Below are positions 8,723 to 58,670 of a DNA stretch of 64,000 nucleotides, piece after piece. The DNA is from Parietichytrium sp. I65-24A. Lineage: Eukaryota; Sar; Bigyra; Thraustochytrida; Thraustochytriidae. The stretch is from positions 248,001 through 312,000 of the forward strand of contig BLSF01000001.1 of assembly GCA_012862575.1 (NCBI GenBank), read 5' to 3'. The translations under genes were made by a program, and so were the position numbers. Within the stretch, counting starts at the first letter, position 1, and every line of letters starts with the position of its first letter. The notes under the pieces are model-generated. The model saw only the letters and a program-made list of their open reading frames with translations, did not search any database and was not told the DNA's origin.

Positions 8723-11700
8723 ATGCAGGTGGCAGATGGCGGCGTGGTGCAGCAGATGGAGGCCGTGATGTTGGAGATGACGGTGCCCAATACGGAGGTG
8801 GTGAAACGCGCAGAAGGGCAGATCCGTAACGCGCTGAAGGACGCGGGCAGCATGCCAGTGCTGTTCCAGCTGCTGAGATTCTCGGCGCACGCGTCCGTGA
8901 GGCAGCTCGCGGCGGTGCTGCTGCGGCTGGTGCTGTCAAAGTATTGGCCGCAGCTGAGCGCTGACGCGAGACAGTCGTGGCGCAAATTTGTGCTGGAGGC
9001 GCTGGCCGCGGAGCAGGAGTGGATCGTGGCGGTGAACACAACGCACGTGGTGTCAGCACTTGCGAGGCTGGAAGTGCAGGAGGATCTGAACGGGTGGCCC
9101 GACCTGCTGACGTTTCTCATCACGTTTGCACGGTCCGACGATGCTGCCAAGCAGGAGCTGTCCATGTCGCTGTTCTTTGCGACCACGGAGACTGTTGGCA
9201 CGGCTTTCAAGCCTTACTTCAACGACCTCAAGGATTTATACTCGTCCATGTTGGTGAATTCTGATAATGCAAGAGTGCAGACTGCAGCCCTGAAAGCAAT
9301 CGCGGCACTGTTCCAGTACTTGGGGGATGGCGAGGATATTGTCAAGTTTCGCGAGCTCTTGCCTCTAATTATTCGCGCCTTGCATGCTCGCATGACCGAC
9401 GAAACGCTCTCAGTCAAGCTCCTGCAGCTCATATCTGACGTTGCTGGTCTACCAAATCCAATTCTGAACAAATACGTTAAAGATGCTGTTGCTGTATTAA
9501 TTGATGTGATACAGTCCGGGGAGGTCGAGATGGGCGTCAAGAAAGTCGCCATCGACACGCTCTGCACCGTCATCACATACAAATCCCGGTTCATAACGAA
9601 ACTCAACTTGTTGCAACCGCTTATTCAGGTCGGCGTACAGTGCATGTCATGGAACTATCCGCGTCACATCGAAATCGTTCTGGAGTCTGAGTTGACCCCT
9701 GAACAGCTCGTAGAGCGCGCGGAAATGAACGGAGATGATGGCGAGGAGAAGTGCGACTTTGGGCAAGCTATTTTGGAGTCCATCGCTGCAAACCTGCCAC
9801 CGAAACAGACCTTACAGCCTCTCGTCAGGATCGCCGCCCAAAAGATGAGTGTCAACTCCACTTTCAATGGAATCAATGAGAATGAGCCAGCCCCGGAGCA
9901 ATGGTAAGTTTGTGAATATGGTTCGTTGTGCTTTCTAGAATTATGTGGACTAACCGTGTAGCGCAACACAGGGTTGGTATCCAGATGCTGCTGTGGATCA
10001 CGGAGGGTCTCGCCGAGGAGCTCATGCTCGGAGACACTCTTGGAGAGTTGTGGAAACTTTTGAAACCCGTTGCAGAAACCAGCCCACATCCTTTAATTCG
10101 CAGTTCGGCTATGTTTTGCTTGAGCGGATGGATTGAGAGCCTTTCTCCAAGCGTTTGGAAGTATATGCCAACGATGATACCGACGGTGATCAACACCTTG
10201 GAGGGCGACTCGAGCGCTTCTGTTCGCCAACATGCTGCTGAGGTTATCGAAGCCATTTGTGACGGGATCGACGAAGACGACCTCAAGCCCTACGCCGATG
10301 AGCTGACCAAAAAGTTGCTGCAAGTAAGTGAGCGCAGAGTCGACGCCAAAACCACCAGTAGCGCACTGAGCGCCCTCTCTGCTGTGATGGTCGCCTTCGG
10401 TGCTCCCTACATGCAATACTTTGACCGGACATTTGCAGTCATTGAGCCGTACATTGTCATTACAGATGACCACTTGCTGCAAGTGAGGGGCCAGGCCATG
10501 TATGCACTCGGCGTTCTTGCCCTCACCGCTAGTCGCAAGGATGAAAACGGTAACAACAACTTGCAGCGTTTTGCTCCGTTGGTAGATCCTTTCATCTCCA
10601 ACGCTGTCGAGAGTCTCCAGCTCGAAGACATGGAACTTACAAGATGGACTTTTCTGGCTCTCTCAACGCTCTCGGACGCGCTGAGAAACCAAGTCGACCC
10701 TTTGGTTGACACTTTGGTGCCGCTCTACCTAGAAAGTCGTTTCTTCGACGAAGACGACGAGCTCGAGATCGACGACCCGGACAACGTCCTTGTACCTAAG
10801 AGCGTTCGCGAAACCTTTACTAGCGGTGACAACGACGCAGATGCGAACGACGACTACGAAGACGCCATTGGAGACGAAGAGGACGACGCTACATTCAATC
10901 CAGGTGTAAGGTTCGGCATCTCACAACGCCGCGAAGTTTTGGATGCGAAAGCAAGTGCCATTCTCGCTCTCAATCGACTTGCCAAAAACGCGTCTCCAGA
11001 AGCTATTCAGCCGCACTTCAAATCTTACCTGGATTATCTTCTGCCGTCTCTGCATCACACATACCCGGAGATTGGAGTCAATGCAGCTGCCGCACTTGCA
11101 AGCGTGGCCGTAGCAATGCAGCGGTGCTTTGCGCCGATCAACATGGATGATCACGCCACTAGGCAGGCTCAGGATTGGGCGCGATCGTGCTTTGTCGAAC
11201 CTGAACCTGAGCCACGATGGCTTCCTGGACTGCCGCCAAAAAATCCTGCTCCTGCGCAATTTCTCAAAGTGTTGAACGATGCGATTATCGGTGCACTCCT
11301 TTCTGGAATTAGACTCATTCAGGAACGCAGCGTGGTAGTCTCGTGCTTTGAAGCTCTTTGTGAGATGCTCAAGCAGGGAGGTCCGGTGATGCTTGGCGAC
11401 AAGGTGCAAGACATTGTTTCAGCCTGCCTCGATGTCGCGATGGACAAAGTCGCTTGTCAGCAAGGTCTTGCGGAAGAGGATGAAGAGGACGAGGAGGTGG
11501 ACGCCTCGGAAAGCCGCTTTGACGAAGTCTACGAGGGGTGCACGGATCTTCTTGCTTCTGTCGCCCAAGTTTGCGGGCCAAGTTTCCTGCCTTATGTGAA
11601 TACAGTATTCCCTGAGCTCGCGTCGAGGATGTCGCGTAACCCAAAGCGGAAGGCGGTCACTCTTACAGTTTTTGTTCTTGTGGTGATTGCTCTTGGACCT

Positions 11701-12360
11701 GGCGGGTGCGACAGCTTCGTGAGAGATCTTCTCGCGCACGTAATTCCATGTCTTCAAGATGAATTCTATCTCACACAGCAAAGGGCAGCATATCTCGTGG
11801 GATGTTTGATCGTATTGGGTCAAAAGCAAGTGGGCCAAGACCAGCAGGTTCTTTTTAGCACTCTTGGCGCTCTCCGAGGAATTCTCGAGGACGCAGGGCA
11901 GGTTGATGCTGTTGCCGCAAAGTACTCCAATAAGCGAGACGTCCCATTGGAAGTCATGGACTTCCAAAATGTAATTGACAATGGAGTTGGGGCGATTGCA
12001 CGCATATTAGCTGCAGGCGCAGAATCACTCCCCGTAGATCAGGTCATTCCTTCTTTCCTGGGGCTTCTTCCGCTCCGCGCTGATCACATGGAAGAGTACG
12101 CGGTGTTTCGTGCGCTCAACATTCTCGTTGCCTCGTCAAAGTCAAGCCCAATTATTTTGTCGGATCCGGCTCGGATGATCCACATTGTCGCGCGAACTTT
12201 AGAGAACCTCGAGCAGGAATCGGAGCCCATGGACTTCACTCGTGCGGAGATGCGGGCATTTGTTCAACAGCTTGTTAATCTTGCTGGTACTGGCGCGACA
12301 AGCGCAATCCAGCAGCTCTCCCAAACTCAGTCTGGTCTTCTTCAGGAACTTATGTCATAA
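8723..12360 (+). CDS. IPO4: Importin-4/Kap123-type karyopherin beta, one intron
   Basis: This nuclear transport receptor is made of HEAT repeats and carries cargo such as histones and ribosomal proteins through nuclear pores. Exons 8723-9903 and 9972-12360 join to 1189 residues. The 68-nt intron has donor GTAAGT, branch GACTAACC and acceptor ACACAG; the nearer TGTAG would break the frame. The N-terminus 'VPNTEVVKRAEGQIRNAL' is the importin-beta N-terminal helix pair, and 'VRQLAAVLLRLVLSKYW' matches the IPO4 block. The middle region 'PHPLIRSSAMFCLSGWIESL' and the length also fit IPO4 better than IPO5. Acidic loops lie at about residues 655-700 and 900-925. The ORF is open upstream of 8723, but that part encodes a purine-tract peptide of Lys, Arg and Glu and is taken as leader. 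The importin-beta family is certain; importin-4 is the best orthologue guess. Confidence 0.9.
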
Positions 12361-21049: not shown

Positions 21050-22909
21050 TCACTTGAAAATTTGGGAGATCAGTGCCTGCAATTCAGCCAGTGCGTCGTC
21101 AAAGGTATCGCGGTCATTCTCGAAAACCCAAGCTCCGCCAAGCAAAACGATGAAAAACGCATTCTTAGCAGCATACATCAAACGTTTTCGCTTTTGTTGC
21201 CCCTGGGTATCCTTCGGTTCATATAGCTCTACGGGCCGTGCTGCAAGTGTGATCAACGCGCCCCAGAAATATGCCAGCACTGTGCTTGACAATGTTATGA
21301 CATTGTATGGCATGCTGAAATCCGGCAGCGGCATTGCAATGATCAGACTTTCGGTGTACGATACTTGCGGAAAACAGCCGCCTTGCAACATTGAAATTCG
21401 GGAAAGCAGAGGAGAATGCTTTAGAGTCTCGTTGGTCCTCCTTAAGCAGGCTTCATCGACTTCGTACTGCACCCTAATTGCAGGCATGTCAAAGCCTCTA
21501 TTCGGATCTGGAGGAAAAACCTCGAGGGGCAAGAACAATTGTTTGAAGGAGTAGGACAACTCAATAGTCGAGTGACTTTTCAGGTGTACTGTCGTCTCGA
21601 TCACAGTTGGAGATGCCGACACCCCCTCCCCAAGGGTTACGGAAGATAGCTTCCACGTCAAAGCCGATGGATAAGTGAGGCCATTTTCGTGAATGCGCAG
21701 ACTCGTGGGATCGAGCTTAAATGTGCTTGGAATTATAGTGAGTGCGCGAATTTTGAGAGGTCTGGCGTAGCTTTGCACGGTGGTGATGGACCCCCCTTCC
21801 AAGCGGCCATAGCCTGCCCCATATCTCTGGACCAGTGCCATTGGCGGCTCTGGTCGCACGGCCACACTAGATGGAAGGCTATCGAGAGTTTGGTTATTCT
21901 TCGCCATTGACCACAGGTCGATTACGTCGTAGTCCATTCCAACGGTACGTGGAGAACCGCCGACCGGTTCTTCAAGTTGTCGTTCTAGGTAAATGCGCGA
22001 GAAGGTGGACACCGGACAGTGCTGCGCACTGGTGAACTCCGAGAGGTCACGCTCTCCTAAAAGAACAGAGAGGCTATCAACGCTAGTTGGAACCTCGTCG
22101 AGGACGGCAGTAAACTTTAGGGTAAGCTCAACAGCTTGCTTGCGACAATCAGTCCACGCACTTGTTCCTTCTGCCTTAGACCACATAGTGCCACTCTCTG
22201 TGCAGACCTTTCTGAAATTAATCGAAAAGCTGTGATGCACGGCTCGAAATACGGTCGTTGGCACGATCAGGCGAGAAAGCCCGAATTCTTCTCTGCAAGG
22301 AAGAAACTTTAGCCAGGGTGTGAGATTCTCCGTGCACGATGCCTCTGAATTTAACTGTCCAAGCATTGCCACCAACTTTGTCTTTGTTTGCTGTGAGCTC
22401 CCTCTGGTACTGTTACGTGTACCAACATTCGGGATTGTTGCTGCGAGATTCTCTTTATCAAGCGCCTCCAATGAAGCACACGTCAAACCAGACAATGACC
22501 TTGTTAATCTTGTCCACCCCGATTCTTCTCCATACTCGGACTGGATCATCTGGTCTTCCAGCACAGCCATCAGCTCCACTCCAGGGGCCGCAGCATCAAA
22601 CTGACTCCCCCACTCTTCGGGGTCCCAAACGCCCCTGGAAAATGAGAGCCGCAGTTCTTCAACATGAAGGGCATCAACGAGCTGGCCAAACTGCTTCGGA
22701 AAGAGATTAAAACTCGACCAATCAAAATCCCTGTCTTGTGCCCATCTCGTCGTGAACTGAAACATTCCTATGACATTGTCCAGTCCTGAGCTCCCACGTG
22801 TCCGCCGCACCAAAAGCTCTTCATCGAATCTTTCCAAACTCCGCTTTTGTACTTCACCACAGCTCATCGCCGCCAGTGCGGCGCACAGGACCGCCTGCAA
22901 AACGCGCAT
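21050..22909 (-). CDS. PIGT: GPI transamidase component PIG-T/Gpi16
   Basis: PIG-T is a subunit of the ER transamidase that cleaves precursor proteins and attaches the GPI anchor; it holds the catalytic subunit PIG-K by a disulphide. The 619-residue product begins with a signal peptide (MRVLQAVLCAALAAMSCGE). The ATG at 22909 was chosen over an upstream GTG-headed extension. Family blocks are 'FQFTTRWAQD', 'FNLFPKQFGQLVDALHVEELRLSFSRGVWDPEEWG' and 'PVGGSPRTVGMDYDVID'. Near the C-terminus there are hydrophobic stretches: 'VITLSSTVLAYFWGALI', which is the expected membrane anchor, then 'NAFFIVLLGGAWVFE'. Intronless. It is divergent from the next gene across 0.9 kb. Confidence 0.93.
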   Translation of the reverse strand: MRVLQAVLCAALAAMSCGEVQKRSLERFDEELLVRRTRGSSGLDNVIGMFQFTTRWAQDRDFDWSSFNLFPKQFGQLVDALHVEELRLSFSRGVWDPEEWGSQFDAAAPGVELMAVLEDQMIQSEYGEESGWTRLTRSLSGLTCASLEALDKENLAATIPNVGTRNSTRGSSQQTKTKLVAMLGQLNSEASCTENLTPWLKFLPCREEFGLSRLIVPTTVFRAVHHSFSINFRKVCTESGTMWSKAEGTSAWTDCRKQAVELTLKFTAVLDEVPTSVDSLSVLLGERDLSEFTSAQHCPVSTFSRIYLERQLEEPVGGSPRTVGMDYDVIDLWSMAKNNQTLDSLPSSVAVRPEPPMALVQRYGAGYGRLEGGSITTVQSYARPLKIRALTIIPSTFKLDPTSLRIHENGLTYPSALTWKLSSVTLGEGVSASPTVIETTVHLKSHSTIELSYSFKQLFLPLEVFPPDPNRGFDMPAIRVQYEVDEACLRRTNETLKHSPLLSRISMLQGGCFPQVSYTESLIIAMPLPDFSMPYNVITLSSTVLAYFWGALITLAARPVELYEPKDTQGQQKRKRLMYAAKNAFFIVLLGGAWVFENDRDTFDDALAELQALISQIFK

Positions 22910-32683: not shown

Positions 32684-34629
32684 ATGGAGTCGGTGATTGA
32701 GCGCCCGCACGAGACGGTGCAAGAGTGCTTCCAGAAGGCGCTGGCCAAGCACGGCGGGGACGCAGCGGCAGCGGCGCGCGCAGACTGGGGAGTGAAAGAG
32801 GCGTTGGAGAGCAAGTTTGGCGCGAAATGGGTGGATCGAGTGCCGTGGTTGACGGCCGAGGCGCTGGCGAGCGGCAAGGTGAAGAGTGGCATGTTGGTCA
32901 AGTTCAGAGGCATGGTGCAGGACCTGTTCGACCCAGAGTATTTCGAGTGCGCGGAGAAGAGGAATGGCGAATGGACCCCATTGAAGTATATGGATTATAC
33001 TACCGAAAAGGGCGACGAGCCTGGTGTGCTTGCGGAAAGATTGGTAAGTTTTATGGTGGAGAGGGGAGGTTTGTTGCTTGTCACTTTGCAAAGTGTGGGA
33101 GAGTGGGGCGTGACCTTACTCGTTTTGTTGTTGTTTTTCTTGCCTTTTTTGACACTCAGCCGCTCTACTGCGTACCGATTCCTGGAGAGACAGCATGGGC
33201 GAGGTCCAAGCGGCTCCAACTGGACGAGTCGCCTGTTGGCCCAAAAGCAGGCAAGGCAGGAGGGAGCCGCACGGAAAGTCTCGCGTCTTCCCGCAAGCGC
33301 GTCATGGCGCAGAATGAAGAAGAGTCAGCGGAGAAGAAGGCAAAGGCCTGCCCCGGACAAGGCGAGCCAGCAGGCAACTCCGAAGCGAGCTCTACAGAAT
33401 CTACAGAATCTTCGGCTCGACGCACCAAGTTGTCCGTTTTAGATGAGCTGAGATTGGCAATGCCATTCGAGTATCCGTCCGACGTGGGGTATTTGCCTTG
33501 CCTTGCAAAGATCTACGACCGCAGGCCTGATGAGCATGCGTTCTTCATGAACGAAGACGCCGATTTTGTGGGGATTTTAGAAATGAACATCATGAGTGGT
33601 CTCCCAACAGATGACAAGGAGGACGAATTTGAGTCCAAATTCTTGGCAATGGAGATCAATGCACGCGGACCACCAGCTGCTCTCGTCCCTAGGATTCACT
33701 GCATTTCGTGGGTCAAGGCGCCGCAAAAACAGCTGTTTGCTAAACAAGTCAAACAAACTAGGGAAAGCATCCGGGAGAAAATGATTTCCTGGATCGCCAA
33801 TCACAGCTTTGCAGGCGATCGTCTAGCCGCAGAGTACCTCCTTCTTTGGATGGTGTCTGGTGTGTATGCGCGCTCAGAGGGCACAATTTTGGGCAAGTTG
33901 AACGTGGCCTTTGCCGAAGAAAAGAAAAGTAATGATACAGGGATCACAGCAACACTTCCAGGGCTGCTCGAAGCTTTGCTCCCGCAACTCCAGGTATTAC
34001 CGCTCACAATTGCCAGTCTTAACTCCGAAAGGCTCGTTCCATATAAATGCAACGAGGCGAACCGTTTAAGGGCTGGCCGCTTGCAAACCAGCCTTGGAAC
34101 ACCACTTGTTGTGGACGAGACGACTATGGAGAGTGGTCAGCTTTTAGAGGCTGGAGTTCGAAACTTGGATGCCTTGAAAAAATTGGCCGCGGAACAGGTT
34201 GTGGACTATGATTTCCAATTTCACATGATCCCGTTTCCTGTGGTCACTCCAATGTGTGTCATGACTGAGAGCACCAAGCCACTCATTTCGGAGGTGGACT
34301 GCTGTATCAAGGTATTGCCACGAAAAGGTCAAATGCCGGATACAAGGATGGACGAGAAATCTCTCGACACCATCCGGCAGTATCTCCAACAAGTGAAGGT
34401 GGAAGCTGCAGAGCAGCTTGAGATTCCCCAACAGCTCAGCAATCTCTTGCAGGAGGACTTTGTGAAATTTAGGCAGCAGTTTCAAGACTTTCAGGCGAAA
34501 GATATGCACACTCTGTTGACTATTGCGCGGTTCATTGCACGAACTTTTGGCGCCTCAAAAATGACTAAAAAGCACTGGAAGCACGCCTGCGATCTCGAGA
34601 AAGACCGCCGCAAACGTATGGTGAAATAA
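32684..34629 (+). CDS. MCMBP: Mini-chromosome maintenance complex-binding protein, one intron
   Basis: MCMBP binds MCM3-7, supports MCM assembly and nuclear import, and promotes MCM unloading. Exons 32684-33043 and 33160-34629 join in phase 0 to 609 residues. The 116-nt intron has donor GTAAGT, a T-rich tract and acceptor ACTCAG. The N-terminal domain has 'KFRGMVQDLFDPEYF', and the splice brings it to 'PLYCVPIPGETAWA', as in the human protein. A low-complexity linker at about 135-220 is followed by the AAA-like core: 'LVPRIHCISW', 'SFAGDRLAAEYLLLWMVSGVYARSEG', 'DETTMESGQL' and 'VVDYDFQFHMIPFP'. The C-terminal 'LLTIARFIARTFG' block is present. Length and order match the family. Confidence 0.95.
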
Positions 34630-36666: not shown

Positions 36667-37203
36667 GTCGGAGCGAAGGGGATGTCAAAGTCCCGCCGAC
36701 ACGGCACCTGCGGAGAGTGCACGGGAAACGGGGGGATCTGTCGCCGCGCAGGTGCGCGCTGTACGTGTGGCGAAGGAGTTAGTGTGGGGGCGGGGTGTCG
36801 GGGTGTCGGAGTGTGAGTGTTGGTGAGTGAGTGAGTGAGTTGGTGAGTTAGTGAGTGAGTGGGAAAAAGAGACTTTGAGTGATAGTAATCAAGTGCGCAA
36901 GAGTGCGCAAAGTGCGAGCGGTTGCTCCGGGAGGATGTCTTGCTGTTTCAGGTAGATTAGTGCTATATGTTTTGGATGTTCCGGCACTCAATGTAATCCA
37001 GGTCGCGGCGCCATATATATGTGCGACGAGAGTGAAGGAAATAGGAAGGATGGGAAGCGGGACGTGGAGGCGGACTGGTGTGGAAGGGGATTGGTGTGAG
37101 AGTTTCCATTCTTGGTGAAGCGAACTTTGATCTACAGATGTACAGATAAATTGGGGTTGTGATTGGGCAATTGGAGGGACAGATGCATGATACAAACGGG
37201 TAG
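36667..37203. other. Intergenic region with GTGAGTGA repeat
   Basis: Gap between two minus-strand genes. It carries an imperfect (GTGA)n tract at about 36819-36862. No gene is seen. Confidence 0.5.
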
Positions 37204-48687: not shown

Positions 48688-50142
48688 ATGCGTGAAGGTA
48701 GACGCAGACGCACCGCATCGGGGGAGCTCGCACAAGGCGGCAATAGTTTTGGAAGGTCGTCAGGACTGATGAGTGGAGATAAATTTGGGAGCCATGGGCG
48801 CCGTGAAAAGCAAACAAAGATGCTCGTGTTTCTTTGTAGCCTTTGCACAGCCCTTTCGTATTGCGACAGGGTGAACATGAGCGTGGCAGTGGTGGATATG
48901 TCCAAGGACCTAGACTGGACCATGACGCAGCGATCCCAAGTGCTCTCGGCGTTCTTTAGTGGGTACATTTGGTCGCAAATTCCTGGTGCGTTCATTGCGC
49001 AAAAGTACGGAGGTCACGTGGTGCTGGGATTCTGTGCGTTCATGTGGAGTATTTGCACGATAATTGTTCCGCCTCTGGCTTCCTACTCTCATCAGTATGT
49101 ACGCTTTGGGCGCATTGGGTTGGGCTTTTTTGAAGGCGTGGTCTTCCCAACAATTTATCATCTATTTTCGAGCCGCATCCCAGAGGATGAGCGCTCGCAG
49201 AGCCTTGGGAGCATAAGTATCGGAGTATTCGGTGGGGCAATCTTCTCGTTCTTGTCTTCGCCTATCTTGATGCACCACTTTGGTTGGCAGTCGGTGTTTT
49301 ACTTTTTTGGCGGACTGGGGCTGGTTTGGTCAGCAATGTGGTTTGCATTCACGATCTTGTACGAGACTAAGGAGGGAAACGCTTCGCGGCTCCCATGCCT
49401 ACCAAATGCAAAGTTTATGGAGTCCGCCGGCCAGGTCGGTCTAGGGCTGGGCCAAGTTGGCCCGACAGTGAGTCCTCCGGCTCAGCTTAGTCTGAGTTCG
49501 CCGGGCCGTTCTTTGGGGGTTCTGGCACAGGCCAAGCACATAGTGTTTCGCAAAGTGAGTTTCGCGATATTCTATGCGCATTTCTGCCACAACGTGGGCT
49601 CTTTTGTGATCATGTCTTGGCTGCCCACTTTCTTCGAGGACGCGTTTGGGCTTGGAGGGTCTTCCCTTGCAATGACCTGTTTGCCGTATATTGCGATGAG
49701 CATAGCAGTCACCTTCACGTCAAAATACGCAGATCGGCACATTGCGAGCGGGGAATCATCATTATGCCAGGTACGGCGATTTTCTTCCATCGTTGGTTTT
49801 CTTGGAGCAGGAACGTTTATGCTGCTGATTGGCACGGCGACATACCCGCCTGTAGCGATAGCGTATATGTGCATTGCTCTGGCCTTCAACGGAGCAGGCC
49901 CAGTTGCTGGATACGAGGCTGCCAAGCTGGACGTCGCCAGCCCAGAGTATGTGGGCAAGTTGCAGTCGATCAGCAACACGATTGCCGCTTTTGCAGGCAT
50001 CGTGGGAGTGCCCATGGTGGCTTATATTAAGACGACCACCGGAAGCTGGAATAGCGTATTTTGGTGCATAGGTCTTGTATTCTACTCAGCAGCGTTTGTG
50101 TTTTACATATTCGGGCACTACACTGGCCGCGTAATTACTTAA
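48688..50142 (+). CDS. SLC17/ANTR-type anion:cation symporter (MFS)
   Basis: This 484-residue major facilitator protein belongs to the SLC17 family, which moves phosphate, organic anions, glutamate or sialic acid. The block 'YCDRVNMSVAVVDMSKDLDW' at 58-77 is the family hallmark. It is followed by 'WSQIPGAFIAQKYGG', 'FGRIGLGFFEGVVFPTIYHL', and in the second half 'HNVGSFVIMSWLPTFFEDAFG' and 'GAGPVAGYEAAKLDVASPEY'. About 12 helices are seen, with a hydrophilic loop at about 230-285. Residues 1-44 are basic and could be a cytosolic tail or, less likely, a plastid or mitochondrial transit sequence. The ATG at 48688 follows a GTG-headed extension. The substrate is not resolved. Confidence 0.9.
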   Translation: MREGRRRRTASGELAQGGNSFGRSSGLMSGDKFGSHGRREKQTKMLVFLCSLCTALSYCDRVNMSVAVVDMSKDLDWTMTQRSQVLSAFFSGYIWSQIPGAFIAQKYGGHVVLGFCAFMWSICTIIVPPLASYSHQYVRFGRIGLGFFEGVVFPTIYHLFSSRIPEDERSQSLGSISIGVFGGAIFSFLSSPILMHHFGWQSVFYFFGGLGLVWSAMWFAFTILYETKEGNASRLPCLPNAKFMESAGQVGLGLGQVGPTVSPPAQLSLSSPGRSLGVLAQAKHIVFRKVSFAIFYAHFCHNVGSFVIMSWLPTFFEDAFGLGGSSLAMTCLPYIAMSIAVTFTSKYADRHIASGESSLCQVRRFSSIVGFLGAGTFMLLIGTATYPPVAIAYMCIALAFNGAGPVAGYEAAKLDVASPEYVGKLQSISNTIAAFAGIVGVPMVAYIKTTTGSWNSVFWCIGLVFYSAAFVFYIFGHYTGRVIT

Positions 50143-50352
50143 GAACTAATTTGTAAATTACTCTGCTCTGACGACCAAGTCGAAAGAACACGAAAAGCTA
50201 ATTCTCAGTTGGTTTTTTCTCTCTCTCTCACATGTCAATCTACTAGCTAATAGCTACTCTAGAGGTATTTTCACCCTCGAACAAAGCTTTTTCGTTCGGG
50301 AAGCACGAATGCGGGAAGCATTTGACGTGAGCGAAATAGTACCCGTTTGTAG

Positions 50353-51717
50353 TCACAGGTAGACAGAGTCCATCTCCTCAACGATCTCGCGACCACTTTT
50401 GAACACTCGCGCGTGCGGCGGTCTAAATTTGGCCCAGGGCGAGATCTTCTCGGGGCCTTGGAACCAGACGGCGCGTTTGCGGATGTCGCTGGTCTTGACT
50501 TGGCTGGGATCAAACACATTAATAAGTAAAAGCCTCGCTCTCCCCACTCGCGTGAAGAGTATCCCCTGCCAGCTCCCCCTGAGGGGTTGATGCCATGTCC
50601 CCAGCCGTTGAGCAAGGGGTTTGTACTTGAATTCGAATTTGGGGTCAGGGTTGGCCCAGTGCCACACAACAAACACTGCGCCGGGCAGAAGGGTCAACGA
50701 GCTAGCGAGGTCTCTTCCGTGCGAAACATGCAGCGCTGCGTGTAGAATGGTGTTCAAAACCATCTGCGAGTAGAGCGGTTCTTCGAGCTTGGCAAAGTCG
50801 TCCAGCGACCACTCAAAATCGGCATTCTTGTGCGCCACCATGCGCGACAGGTACCGCGCCGAGTCGGACCCAGGCGTGAGAAAGCTGCCGTCCCACCCGA
50901 TGTGAAACACGCGCGGCACCTCGGGAACGAGGACATCACGCCCTTTGGCGAATTGCTTGGTGCGCATGTGCCAGTCCCAGTGATCATCGGGCCAGTTGTC
51001 TTTCAGCTCTTCGTCCCATACGCGGCGCATAAGCAGCCACCCCAACCCGGGAAAGAAATCCGTGCGTCTCACCGCGTGCGCGTCGATTGCCAACTCGGAG
51101 AAGCCATTATCATTCCACGCGCTCGCCGCCCACAGGCTGGGGTCGCGCTCGATCACCAGCGCCGCCAGCGCCATGAACTCCGCAAAGTCCTCCGCCACCT
51201 CTAGGTCGTCTTCCAGCACCACGACCGCGGCCGTTCGCCCGTCCTGCGCATCAAAGTGCTCAAACGCTGCGCCAAGCGCCCACTTGAACTGCCGCGCGAT
51301 CCTCTTTCCCGCTGCGACCTTCGATCCCCCGCCCATGGCCCCGCTCGCATCGCAGCTGCCACCATCCAAAGCCCCGACTGCCTCATGTTCCCGGGCCACC
51401 AGCGCGACGCCCGCCTCTCTCGCCACGCTGCGCACTTCCTCGCTCGCTCCGTCCTGCGCCAGCAGCACGCGGTGGCGCCGCACTCCCCTCGCGCGGAGGA
51501 TCCCTCGCACCGTGCGCCTCAGCTCCGCCGCGCGCCGGTGGCACACCACCACCACCGCCACTCCTTCCGCCCAGGCCCCTTCGCCCCGCGCATCCCCTCT
51601 CGCAGCTCCCGCATCTCTCCCATCTCTTGCATCTCTTGCACATGCCGCGAGCAGCAGCAGCAGCAGCAGAGACAGCAGTGGCAGCAGCGGCGGGCAGCGG
51701 GGAGCGGCGGGGAGCAT
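50353..51717 (-). CDS. MGAT1: Alpha-1,3-mannosyl-glycoprotein beta-1,2-N-acetylglucosaminyltransferase (GnT-I)
   Basis: GnT-I transfers GlcNAc from UDP-GlcNAc to Man5GlcNAc2 in the Golgi, the first step towards complex N-glycans. The 454-residue product is a type II protein: a Leu-rich anchor at 11-25 (PLLSLLLLLLL), a GC-rich stem, then the GT13 domain. Visible are 'VVVVCHRRAAELRRTV', the metal-binding EDD at 169-171 within 'VVLEDDLEVAEDF', 'WAASAWNDNGF', 'DFFPGLGWLLMRRVWDEL' and 'WDWHMR'. It lies directly downstream of the TrpRS gene on the same strand, and its ATG shares one base with that gene's TAA (TAATG). The placement of the anchor makes this ATG the natural start. The first 400 nt are very GC-rich. 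Confidence 0.93.
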   Translation of the reverse strand: MLPAAPRCPPLLPLLSLLLLLLLAACARDARDGRDAGAARGDARGEGAWAEGVAVVVVCHRRAAELRRTVRGILRARGVRRHRVLLAQDGASEEVRSVAREAGVALVAREHEAVGALDGGSCDASGAMGGGSKVAAGKRIARQFKWALGAAFEHFDAQDGRTAAVVVLEDDLEVAEDFAEFMALAALVIERDPSLWAASAWNDNGFSELAIDAHAVRRTDFFPGLGWLLMRRVWDEELKDNWPDDHWDWHMRTKQFAKGRDVLVPEVPRVFHIGWDGSFLTPGSDSARYLSRMVAHKNADFEWSLDDFAKLEEPLYSQMVLNTILHAALHVSHGRDLASSLTLLPGAVFVVWHWANPDPKFEFKYKPLAQRLGTWHQPLRGSWQGILFTRVGRARLLLINVFDPSQVKTSDIRKRAVWFQGPEKISPWAKFRPPHARVFKSGREIVEEMDSVYL

Positions 51718-52793
51718 TAGGGCAGGCGGTGGAGAATGTGTAGTCCGCAAGCGGCGTGCAGGCGGTCGAGGACGGGCTGGGCGGTGCGGGCGGCAGCGCG
51801 GGCGCCTTGGTTGAGGACGTCGTGGAGGTAGGCGGGGTCGGCGATGAGCCTGTCGATCTCGGCGCCGAGAGGGCAGATGGCGGCGATGACGGCGTCGGCG
51901 AGGACGTCCTTGAAGTCGCGCATGCCCATGCCCTCGTGGGCGGCGCAGACGTCCGAGATGGACTGGTCCTGCAGAGCGGCGAGGATGGAGACCATGTTGA
52001 GCAGCTCGGGGCGCGAGGTCAGGAGCACCTCGGAGACAGGGCCCATGGAGTCGGACTTGGCGCGTCTGATCTTCTGGCGGATGAGGTCCGCAGAGTCGTT
52101 GAGGTTGATGCGGGAGTAGTCGGATGGGTCCGACTTGCTCATCTTCTTCTTGCCGTCGCGGAGACTCATGATGCGCGCGCCGCCATGGGGAGGAAAGATG
52201 GGCTTGGGAGGGACGAAGAGCTGCTGCTTGTACTGGTCGTTCATGCGCTGCGCGATATCACGGGCGAACTCGAGGTGCTGTGTCTGGTCCTCGCCCACGG
52301 GGACGTGTGTCGCCTCGTAGAGCAGGATGTCGGCGGCCATAAGAGACGGGTACGCATACAAGCCCAGCTCCGGAGACTCTCTGCTCTTTGACTTTTCCTT
52401 GAACTGTGTCATACGGTTAAGCCAGCCCATGGGCGTGTGGCACTGCAGCATCCACGCCAGCTCCGAGTGGCCCGGCACCATCGACTGCTGGAAGATGGCC
52501 GATTTGGACGGGTCCACCCCGCACGCGAGCATCGTCGCAGCTAGCCCTATGATGCCCTGCTGCAGCTCTGCTGCGGACCGCTGCGAAGTCAGTGAGTGCA
52601 AATCTGCTACCATATAAAAGACTTGCTGCTTTTGGGCATTGTCCTTGTCGGCGCCCACCTTAGCTTCGAAAAAGTCCTGCAGCTTGACCCATGTCCTGAG
52701 CGCTCCGAGATAGTTTCCTAGTGTAGGCACGCCTGTTGGCTGAATACCTGACAAGACCCGGCGCACTGTGGCGCTGCCCGCTTTGCTCGCCAT
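51717..52793 (-). CDS. Bacterial/organellar-type tryptophanyl-tRNA synthetase
   Basis: This enzyme charges tRNA-Trp. At 358 residues it is the short bacterial-type form used in mitochondria or plastids, not the longer cytosolic eukaryotic form. The HIGH-like motif is 'PTGVPTLGNYLG' at 19-30 and KMSKS is at 217-221 in 'GKKKMSKSDPS'. Other class I blocks are 'FYMVADLHSLT', 'DPSKSAIFQQS', 'MTQFKEK', 'YPSLMAADILLYEATHVPVGEDQTQHLE' and 'PPHGGARIMSL'. The ATG at 52793 leaves only a short basic N-terminus (MASKAGSATVRRVL), a weak targeting signal, so an upstream start or exon is possible. Its stop overlaps the start of MGAT1 by one base. Confidence 0.92.
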   Translation of the reverse strand: MASKAGSATVRRVLSGIQPTGVPTLGNYLGALRTWVKLQDFFEAKVGADKDNAQKQQVFYMVADLHSLTSQRSAAELQQGIIGLAATMLACGVDPSKSAIFQQSMVPGHSELAWMLQCHTPMGWLNRMTQFKEKSKSRESPELGLYAYPSLMAADILLYEATHVPVGEDQTQHLEFARDIAQRMNDQYKQQLFVPPKPIFPPHGGARIMSLRDGKKKMSKSDPSDYSRINLNDSADLIRQKIRRAKSDSMGPVSEVLLTSRPELLNMVSILAALQDQSISDVCAAHEGMGMRDFKDVLADAVIAAICPLGAEIDRLIADPAYLHDVLNQGARAAARTAQPVLDRLHAACGLHILHRLP

Positions 52794-54586
52794 TGCGGGT
52801 ATACAAACTAACAACTAAAAATTTTCCAGTCCGACAAGCAAGCCGAAGCCGATTGGACATAAACAAAAAGTTCGTGTGCGGACCGAAAGCCTTCAACGTA
52901 AAGCAAAGTAAAAAAAGCCGGACTCTCCGCTCCAACGACTGACACTTTCCCAGGAGCAAAGCTCCTTCTTCACTCCCTTATCTGTTCTTGCCTTTCTCAA
53001 CAAACAACCAGGCGCCCCGGCAGTGCACTTGCTGCCTGTGTTCATCCACACTATCGCACGCTGCACTGTCAGTCGCCTGGGCAGCTTCCCTTCCTTCAGA
53101 AGCAGAACAAACCACCAGTCCCACACAAACCTCGCAAAACCCACAAAAATCTCACGAGTCGCCTTGGAGGTCTGTGTCTGTGTCCTGTGTCCTGTGTCCT
53201 GTGTCCTGTGTCCTGTGTCCTGTGTCCTGTGTCTGTGCCACTCGTGCAGGAAGCGAGAACAGGACAACGAGGTCCATCGATCGATGCAGATACCAGCTAG
53301 CCTGAGTACGCCAGAGTAATTTATAGGGCAGTCAGTACAAGGTGCAGTGCTTTAATGTGCTTTACATTCTTTACATTGACGAAAGCTATTCCGCACTCTC
53401 TACTTAGTAGAGAGATCTCTAGAGTCTAGCTTTTTACTCGCGCTGGTGAGGTGAGGTGAGAGAGAGAGTGGGTGGAAAGGGTGGAAGATCGATCGACTTA
53501 CCGCGACTCTCACAACGACGATGATCACATGCCAAGTTCTTTGTGTGTGTGGTATTTTGCTTGGGCTTCAAGTTGCAACTGCCGCTTCGTTCGCAGTCAG
53601 TCAATTCATCAGTCCAGCTGTCTCAGCCTTCTCGTTGGCTCTTGCTGCTGGTGAGTGGTGGAGTGATCGTGAACCTCCTTTTGCCATTCCTATTCTTCTT
53701 CACCTGCGCATGAACAGTAATGGCCTGGACTTTCGAAAGAAGCTGCGCTGCACTTGAGGGAACGAGCAAATTATTGCACTCACTGTCAGTGCTGTCGCGG
53801 CTGTGGAAATTATGCGAAAAGAATTGGCCGAAAGGGAATGACTGTTGAGTACGAGGTATGTACTGACAGCGAGTACTGCCCGGAAATTTGTCTCGCTGTT
53901 TTGTTTCAGTATGCTTCAGTGGAGACTATTTTTAATCAAAAAGTTGTTCATTGCCAGCCAGGTCAAGGCGAGTTACTTCCAAGTTCATTGGAAGAAGTTT
54001 TTCCTGCATAACGTCGCAGGCAGTTCACTGCCAACAAACTCTCCAGCAAGCTTTCTTTTTTTGGTTAAAGCCGCCATGCTGTCATGTCAGAGTGTGGGTC
54101 TTCGTGGCAATGATTGATGAGGCGCGCCGTATTCGACAGCCAGAACTGCGGAATGAGTTGTTGCGGTGGATGCTCGCGCGTATGTGCGTGATACCGTCTA
54201 AGACGAGACCCGCGTAAGTTGCGAATTCAAAGTGATTAGAGTGATGGAGAGCGAACCAACCGACATATGGTGTTTGTTGCTCCTGAATGCAGGGCTTGCC
54301 CGTGTTCAATAGCATAGAAGTTTGGCAGCTAAGCTGCCCGAGATTTGCATGACATTGGAATGCAGCTACTCAGCCGCCTCGTGACATCTGTGATTTGCAA
54401 TGCTTAGTAGAGTAGGATCCCATACTTGCACATGCTCGATGCGGCACGGGAAGGCGGAGTCAGTCAATCTAAAGAGCAGTGCACCAAATTGGAAATTCAT
54501 TCAAGTTCAAATTTCATGATCATGGGAAGTGAAAAAAGAAACAAAAAAGAAGAGAATCAGAAAAGATGCGCTCAGTTGGTGTATGG
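52794..54586. other. 1.8-kb gap upstream of TrpRS
   Basis: A TGTCCTG heptanucleotide array lies at about 53180-53229. Frame 53521-53757 starts with a hydrophobic, signal-like peptide and has a GTGAGT at 53651, but no downstream exon can be tied to it. Otherwise nothing is recognised. Confidence 0.4.
53180..53229. repeat. TGTCCTG tandem repeat, about 7 copies
   Basis: Perfect head-to-tail copies of a 7-nt unit, flanked by TGTCTG variants. Confidence 0.9.
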
Positions 54587-57995: not shown

Positions 57996-58670
57996 ATGGC
58001 GAGCGTGGCAGCTGTGAAGGAAGCGAACCGCTCGTGCTGCGACTGCGGAGCGCACGACCCACAATGGGCGTCCGTGTCGAACGGCTGCGTGGTGTGCATT
58101 ACGTGCGCCGGAGTGCACCGCGGTCTGGGAGTGCACATTTCGTTTGTCAAGTCGCTGACGATGGACGCGTGGCGCGGGGACGAAGTGCAGCGCGTGGTGC
58201 TGGGCTCGAACGAGTTTGTGAATCAGTTCTTTCATTCTCACGGGCAACCATCAAGCGGACAGGAGCGGTACCTGAGCGATGCTGGCGGGCTGCTGCGGGC
58301 GACGATTTCCGCTGCGATGGAAGGGGTTCCTGCGCCTGCGACAGTAGAAGAGCTTGGCCTGGCGGAAAGGCAGCTGCTCGCGGAGGAGCGCCGCGGGTTT
58401 CGGCATCGGATGCTGGCAGCTGGCGCCACGCTGGACAATTCTGACGCTCGGCCTTGGGTGCCAGACAGCGAAGCGGAGACGTGCATGGTGTGCGGCAGGG
58501 CGTTTTCCATGCTTGTAAGGAGGCACCACTGCCGCGCGTGTGGCAGATGCTGCTGCTACAAGTGCGCTCCAAGCGACAATACCAAGCCAATCCCGCAGCT
58601 TGGCTATCGCCAGCCTGTTCGCCATTGCAAGCAATGCTTCCGCAGTGCTCACGTCGATTTTGGCGAATAA
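57996..58670 (+). CDS. Small ArfGAP-FYVE fusion protein
   Basis: This 224-residue protein joins two lipid-traffic domains. Residues 5-80 are an Arf GTPase-activating zinc domain: C14-x2-C17-x16-C34-x2-C37, followed by the catalytic arginine finger R42 in '[22 protein letters not shown]'. The ArfGAP fold is cut short after 'NQFF', lacking much of the usual C-terminal helices. After a helical linker (90-150), residues 154-214 are a FYVE domain with all three signatures: WVPD at 154-157, RRHHCRACG at 175-183 and 'PVRHCKQC' at 208-214. FYVE binds phosphatidylinositol 3-phosphate on endosomes, so the protein probably acts on Arf there. The ATG at 57996 follows an open TTG-headed stretch of repetitive sequence. 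Confidence 0.9.

Follow-up and report, generated by a model that had tools for sequence, protein, structure and literature searches.

A one-nucleotide overlap between a tryptophanyl-tRNA synthetase gene and an MGAT1-like gene in Parietichytrium sp. I65-24A, with a probable promoter inside coding DNA

In a 64-kb stretch of DNA from Parietichytrium sp. I65-24A, which is called the window below and to which the coordinates refer unless a contig is named, two protein genes lying on the same strand abut with a 1-nt overlap. The first encodes a bacterial/mitochondrial-type tryptophanyl-tRNA synthetase (TrpRS), and the second encodes an MGAT1-like glycosyltransferase of the GNT-I type. The minus-strand junction reads ...CGCCTGCCC TAA, with ATGCTC... 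sharing the A at 51717. The TAATG overlap claimed in the preliminary description of this DNA was confirmed from the minus-strand sequence, with 51717 as the common base. The positions of the features are given in Table 1. The eIF2B-beta encoded in the window was most similar to metagenome proteins and MMETSP transcripts (three at 57-65% identity) and, of the records that carry an organism name, to Hondaea fermentalgiana (52%), in line with a labyrinthulomycete host. No Rfam family was found in the 64-kb window at the gathering score. Fold prediction revealed no stable RNA fold at the junction (z = +1.0), and approximately 20 nt preceding UAAUG were unpaired in the predicted fold.

Table 1. Features at and around the TrpRS/MGAT1 junction (window coordinates).
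Feature	Position	Strand	Basis or remark
Presumed TrpRS promoter (outward GC-skew hub)	53165		372 bp upstream of the TrpRS ATG
TrpRS ORF, bacterial/mitochondrial type, 358 aa	51717..52793	minus	PF00579 and TIGR00233
Upstream arm of the junction hub (last 160 TrpRS codons)	51720..52199	minus	Extreme third-position C over G
ATG-free stretch before the MGAT1 ATG, 203 nt	51718..51920	minus	Candidate leader of an internal mRNA
TAATG junction	51715..51719	minus	TrpRS stop TAA 51719-51717; its last A is the first base of the MGAT1-like ATG, 51717-51715
GC-skew switch (outward hub), proposed MGAT1 promoter/TSS region	51641..51649		Hub at 51641, cumulative-skew minimum at 51649; resolution about 100 bp
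GNT-I (MGAT1-like) glycosyltransferase ORF, 454 aa, N-terminal signal anchor	50353..51717	minus	PF03071, hydropathy
A+T-rich space, presumed shared 3' end	50143..50352	minus	After the MGAT1 stop, up to the stop of the convergent plus-strand ORF 48688-50142

The TrpRS gave an equivalog-level match to TIGR00233 (284.5 bits, cut-off 176.75), which covered positions 4-328 of the 328 positions of the model and placed the model end at residue 351 of 358. Because the model was matched to its last position, the C-terminal end of the protein can be regarded as normal, as had been stated before. The best named homologues among the matches listed were alphaproteobacterial (50-54% identity), and the protein had a single match in the assembly (42.5 Mb, 172 contigs). 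The PF00579 domain was found at four places in the assembly, the window TrpRS included. By inspection, the other three genes appear to encode a bacterial-type TyrRS, a eukaryotic-type TyrRS and a eukaryotic-type TrpRS. The last of these, located elsewhere in the genome, was read in the same way as the cytosolic TrpRS; given these labels, the window gene would be the only mitochondrial TrpRS found. The organelle to which this enzyme had been ascribed thus fits as the mitochondrion, with a separate eukaryotic-looking TrpRS also present.

As regards a mitochondrial presequence, only about 11 residues lie ahead of the conserved core of the TrpRS, and a stop closes the frame after no more than 7 codons in the direction upstream of its ATG. 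An out-of-frame ORF whose ATG precedes that of TrpRS by 67 nt (52660-52860, minus strand) overlaps the TrpRS start and has an Arg-rich, presequence-like beginning. Taken with a GTGAG donor at 53155, this ORF hints at an intron in the 5' region or at another start for TrpRS. A short tandem repeat with the unit GGACACA (53170-53236, minus strand) is located directly upstream of the TrpRS 5' region and adjoins the skew hub at 53165.

The MGAT1-like protein matched PF03071 with 165.5 bits (cut-off 25.4) over residues 47-331 and, more weakly, PF05060 (MGAT2) with 38.3 bits (cut-off 27); GlcNAc transfer to the Man5 N-glycan, the GNT-I reaction, is its candidate activity. Among the matches listed, its best homologues were 37-38% identical. 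An acidic EDD (DXD-type) motif and an SAWNDNG block are present, with E169, D171 and S199-G205 invariant in seven aligned sequences; we take both elements to have a catalytic role. GNT-I domains in the assembly comprised that of the window protein and two on contig C13, which were 37-40% identical. The latter two lie in tandem in one intronless ORF of 1100 aa (L003, 688-3990, G000:C13), which is, to judge from its sequence, a fused duplication of a Golgi-type transferase. GNT-I-like proteins with 34-38% identity are also encoded on contigs filed as bacterial MAGs (L029, L030 and L031), one of which is a 226-kb Hyphomicrobiales contig. These genes are either bacterial relatives of the Golgi enzyme or contamination.

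The start of the MGAT1-like protein deserves closer attention. Its hydropathy peak of 2.36 over residues 8-26 is that of a type II Golgi signal anchor, from which Golgi localisation is predicted. When the protein starts at 51717, a tail of 10 residues precedes the anchor. A short tail followed by an anchor was also found in the GNT-I relatives P0002, P0003 and P0005 and in the C13 paralogue, and it was absent in P0001 and P0006. Because the former proteins begin alike, the start at 51717 is credible by architecture. The frame is open from stop to stop over 634 codons (52257-50353), of which 180 lie upstream of the ATG, inside TrpRS. The ATG at 51717 is the first in this open frame, and the next one, counted on the translation, is residue 128. 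Since residue 128 lies inside the Pfam match, no other ATG of the open frame yields the whole protein.

The nucleotide context of this ATG is poor. It has C at -3, and its score was below those of all 62 other starts scored, a comparison set that includes at least one false start (the second half of an importin-like gene); a purine was present at -3 in 56 of the 62. Among all ATGs in a 264-kb sample, 86% scored at least as high. The view that both ends of the junction are credible held for protein architecture, with the end of the TrpRS model and the MGAT1 anchor, but the start context of the MGAT1 ATG was poorer than all the others scored. The freedom from ATG of the 203 nt before this start was mildly unusual, as a fraction of 0.0475 of synonymous resamplings was free of ATG there.

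Gene spacing was studied in the same 264-kb sample, which consisted of 200 kb of contig C1 and the window. When ORFs of at least 200 aa were called by length alone, 74 ORFs with 28 pairs of same-strand neighbours were obtained: TrpRS/MGAT1 (-1), the intron-split importin-like gene (35) and 26 other pairs at 170-6108 bp, all inter-ORF gaps here and below being upper bounds because of introns. With ORFs of at least 150 aa (89 ORFs, 27 same-strand pairs), one further close pair appeared, with a gap of 16. This pair, at G000:C1:158904-161145 (585 and 155 aa), either abuts like the first or is one gene split by an intron. When ORFs were called by codon score instead, the set comprised 64 ORFs with 24 same-strand pairs; the 22 pairs besides TrpRS/MGAT1 and the intron-split gene were at 156-21,543 bp, and some of them were not true neighbours because at least three window ORFs (21050-22909, 48688-50142 and 57996-58670) were missed by this set. 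The TrpRS/MGAT1 pair is a spacing outlier, and genes in the 264-kb sample are not generally packed so tightly.

The importin-like gene (8723-12360) is split into ORFs 8723-9907 and 9943-12360 by a 68-nt intron at 9904-9971 (GTAAGT...CTAAC...CAG), which was read by eye and provides one example of intron signals in this genome. Two plus-strand ORFs, 32684-33442 and 32827-34629, overlap in different frames and look like one gene with an intron; this gene is presumably MCM-binding-protein-like.

The first 100 nt past the TrpRS stop contained 33% AT, versus a mean of 57% and a minimum of 42% for the 62 other ORFs. Because TrpRS lacks such an AT-rich 3' flank, its transcript probably reads through MGAT1. 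In the A+T-rich space that follows MGAT1, 150-bp windows taken within 50100-50324 had a GC of 0.39-0.42, and most simply the two genes would share a 3' end located past the MGAT1 stop. A search for a poly(A) signal downstream of 61 ORFs revealed no clearly enriched word.

GC skew was then considered as a mark of gene starts. In the 264-kb sample, the coding-strand skew averaged over 62 ORFs was about -0.05 upstream of the ATG and climbed to about +0.2 around it, and 41 outward skew hubs were found versus 14 inward ones. Twenty-five of the 41 outward hubs were located within 500 bp of a called start, whereas the random mean was 9.8 and none of 1000 random sets reached 25; this link between skew and transcription start sites (TSSs) is calibrated on the start codons of crude ORF calls rather than on mapped TSSs. 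The result was similar with ORFs of at least 200 aa called by length only (26 of 41 versus a random mean of 11.2) and with the other length-only ORF set (30 of 41 versus 13.0). The other 16 of the 41 outward hubs were farther than 500 bp from any called start.

The hub at the junction has arms of -0.38 and +0.30 and ranks 11th of the 41 by step and first by GC (0.70). At the MGAT1 ATG the skew step was 0.57, the third highest among called starts, a value reached at 0.8% of 10,496 positions sampled on both strands. In 2000 synonymous resamplings of the junction, the step had a mean of 0.20 and a maximum of 0.38. Since the resamplings never exceeded 0.38, the observed step is not forced by the proteins. 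The difference C3-G3 over the last 160 TrpRS codons was 0.49, the highest of 62 ORFs, with the next at 0.25. Along the TrpRS gene, third positions shift from G-rich to C-rich, with C3 changing from 0.30 to 0.82, and uniform codon preference would not give such a shift. The hub is located about 70 bp downstream of the MGAT1 ATG, whereas in the other 20 of the 21 window ORFs the best step was at -495 to 0 (median -225 over 63 ORFs). The C-rich Leu/Pro codons of the MGAT1 anchor may shift the skew switch into the ORF.

Because an outward skew hub, as at gene starts, is built here from synonymous sites in the end of TrpRS, MGAT1 is probably transcribed from a promoter of its own, perhaps a bidirectional one, within the TrpRS coding end. 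In either direction, the junction DNA may have acted as a gene start. A pair of inverted skew peaks is described as the mark of bidirectional promoters in mammals (PMC3882496). Two inverted peaks likewise surround the presumed TSS at this locus; in contrast to the mammalian promoters described in that source, however, the upstream arm consists of another gene's protein-coding DNA, and the TSS is presumed from sequence.

We give about an even chance to an arrangement of nested, 3'-coterminal mRNAs with the MGAT1 promoter inside TrpRS. A long mRNA would start near 53.2 kb, carry the TrpRS coding region and continue through MGAT1 for want of a visible 3' end between the two. A short MGAT1 mRNA would be transcribed from within TrpRS, where a promoter, perhaps bidirectional, would lie among the final few hundred bases of coding DNA, and the ATG of TAATG would be the first AUG of this mRNA. 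The overlap, both protein families, the skew signature and the missing AT-rich flank were all observed; the last two speak for this arrangement, and the 203 nt without ATG before the MGAT1 ATG are also counted for it. Its TSS, shared 3' end and antisense arm are presumed. Against it are counted the poor context of the MGAT1 ATG, the position of the hub about 70 bp inside the ORF and the 16 of 41 hubs that lie away from starts. If nested mRNAs are indeed produced, the exact TAATG would be largely a packing coincidence.

The poor context and the position of the hub could also mean that the MGAT1 start was misassigned. An upstream exon would then be spliced into the open frame (to 52257), the genes would overlap via splicing, and TAATG would be a chance motif. 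We consider this unlikely and keep it in view because the MGAT1 context scored below all 62 others. Upstream of the ATG the frame stays open over 180 codons, and introns do occur in this genome, as in the importin-like gene. Possible splice sites are the GTGAG donor at 53155 and, at 51777, a CAG acceptor preceded by 15 bases of which 10 are pyrimidines. However, the TrpRS coding sequence and the first 318 nt of MGAT1 contained no GTRAG or GTRNGT donor, these being strong donors only, and the short tail and anchor shared with P0002, P0003, P0005 and the C13 paralogue argue for the start at 51717.

Termination-reinitiation, in which ribosomes that end TrpRS on a bicistronic mRNA restart at the overlapping AUG, as in influenza B M1/BM2, appears rather improbable. 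The resemblance in layout is close: in segment 7 of influenza B, the identical UAAUG joins a long ORF1 to ORF2, and reinitiation there is reported for about 10% of ribosomes (PMC3035654). The very poor scanning context of the MGAT1 ATG (none of the 62 other starts scored lower) would be tolerable if initiation were driven by proximity, and this reading is kept alive because such a context suits coupling better than scanning. The lack of an AT-rich 3' flank between the two ORFs is also in agreement with it, as are the approximately 20 unpaired nt before UAAUG, the BM2 signal being described as largely unstructured. Furthermore, 80S-ribosome reinitiation, which is said to be independent of cis-elements, was induced in yeast under selection (PMC11952965). 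On the other hand, of the features of a viral TURBS, the stop/start overlap is present and the UGGGA core is absent: UGGGA, UGGG and GGGA, the motif as defined in the viral cases, were all lacking in the 150 nt before the MGAT1 ATG. In the viral cases, the 18S-complementary motif is described as essential. The locus differs from M1/BM2, as described, in lacking a UGGGA-type motif upstream and in consisting of nuclear genes of a cellular organism. The skew hub points to a separate start, pairs so packed are not general in the sample, and ORF1 is long (358 codons).

Of the options offered in the preliminary description, a promoter within TrpRS thus gained support from the GC-skew and third-position signature, whereas reinitiation by the viral route did not, since the last 150 nt contain no UGGGA core. 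Since no AT-rich 3' flank follows TrpRS, the bicistronic RNA suggested there is plausible as a molecule; what lost ground is the idea that MGAT1 is translated from it by viral-type reinitiation. We consider it improbable that the locus is a true cellular UAAUG bicistron outside green algae, a nuclear mRNA of a stramenopile from which the mitochondrial TrpRS and the Golgi GNT-I would be produced, the latter by reinitiation without the viral UGGGA tether and mitochondrial translation capacity would be coupled to N-glycan processing.

An assembly or consensus artefact, by which an intergenic stretch was lost or a base error made the overlap, is very unlikely. It would explain why the pair is a gene-spacing outlier, and errors may be more frequent in GC-rich CTG-repeat DNA such as that of the junction. 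However, both frames are intact on either side, TrpRS ends at the end of the family model, and the loss of a spacer would have had to leave behind an exact stop and start.

Green-algal nuclear bicistronic loci (Chlamydomonas and Auxenochlorella; PMC11291117) resemble this one in having same-strand ORFs with almost no spacer, and at some Auxenochlorella loci described in that source the stop and start codons overlap. Yet the green-algal ORF1 is described there as short, with a weak context and few ATGs, whereas here it is long and has a strong context and 18 internal ATGs. Translation of MGAT1 by leaky scanning past ORF1, for which the short inter-ORF distance would speak, is nearly excluded by the strong context of the TrpRS start (57 of the 62 scored lower) and the 18 further ATGs before the MGAT1 ATG, and ORF1 with its stop measures 1077 nt against published medians of 357 and 291 nt.

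Overlap of the stop and start codons of co-directed genes is also described for prokaryotes (PMC6728339). In contrast to those pairs, as described, the setting here is eukaryotic, and a mitochondrial-type tRNA synthetase is joined to a Golgi-type enzyme without evident operon logic. Transfer of a bacterial operon was rejected, as TrpRS was found on none of the 11 GNT-I-like loci L029-L039 (tblastn, E <= 1e-3), nine of which came from the genome scan, all titled bacterial, and two from the viral scan. Fused TrpRS-GNT-I proteins were likewise rejected: PF00579 was present in none of the best 120 of 137 GNT-I matches and PF03071 in none of the best 120 of 8000 TrpRS matches, in a search whose length limits would miss many fusions. 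Among the titles and abstract beginnings of the open-licence papers listed, none concerned polycistronic nuclear genes in thraustochytrids, and no report of an arrangement of the TrpRS/MGAT1 type in this lineage was found among the papers listed. The arrangement is unusual and not unprecedented, being of known kinds, namely, abutting genes and internal or bidirectional promoters.

If MGAT1 is driven from within the TrpRS coding DNA, the same bases both act in regulation and encode a conserved protein end. Synonymous sites would then record the internal promoter, and the strand-skew mark could help to find hidden promoters without RNA data. If the locus is a reinitiating bicistron instead, it would show the UAAUG device in one of its rare cellular uses.

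Another outward GC-skew hub was found in the window at 36711, near the start of ORF 36666-34960. It is located between two tandem genes (gap of 537 bp) and has the strongest step of all called starts.
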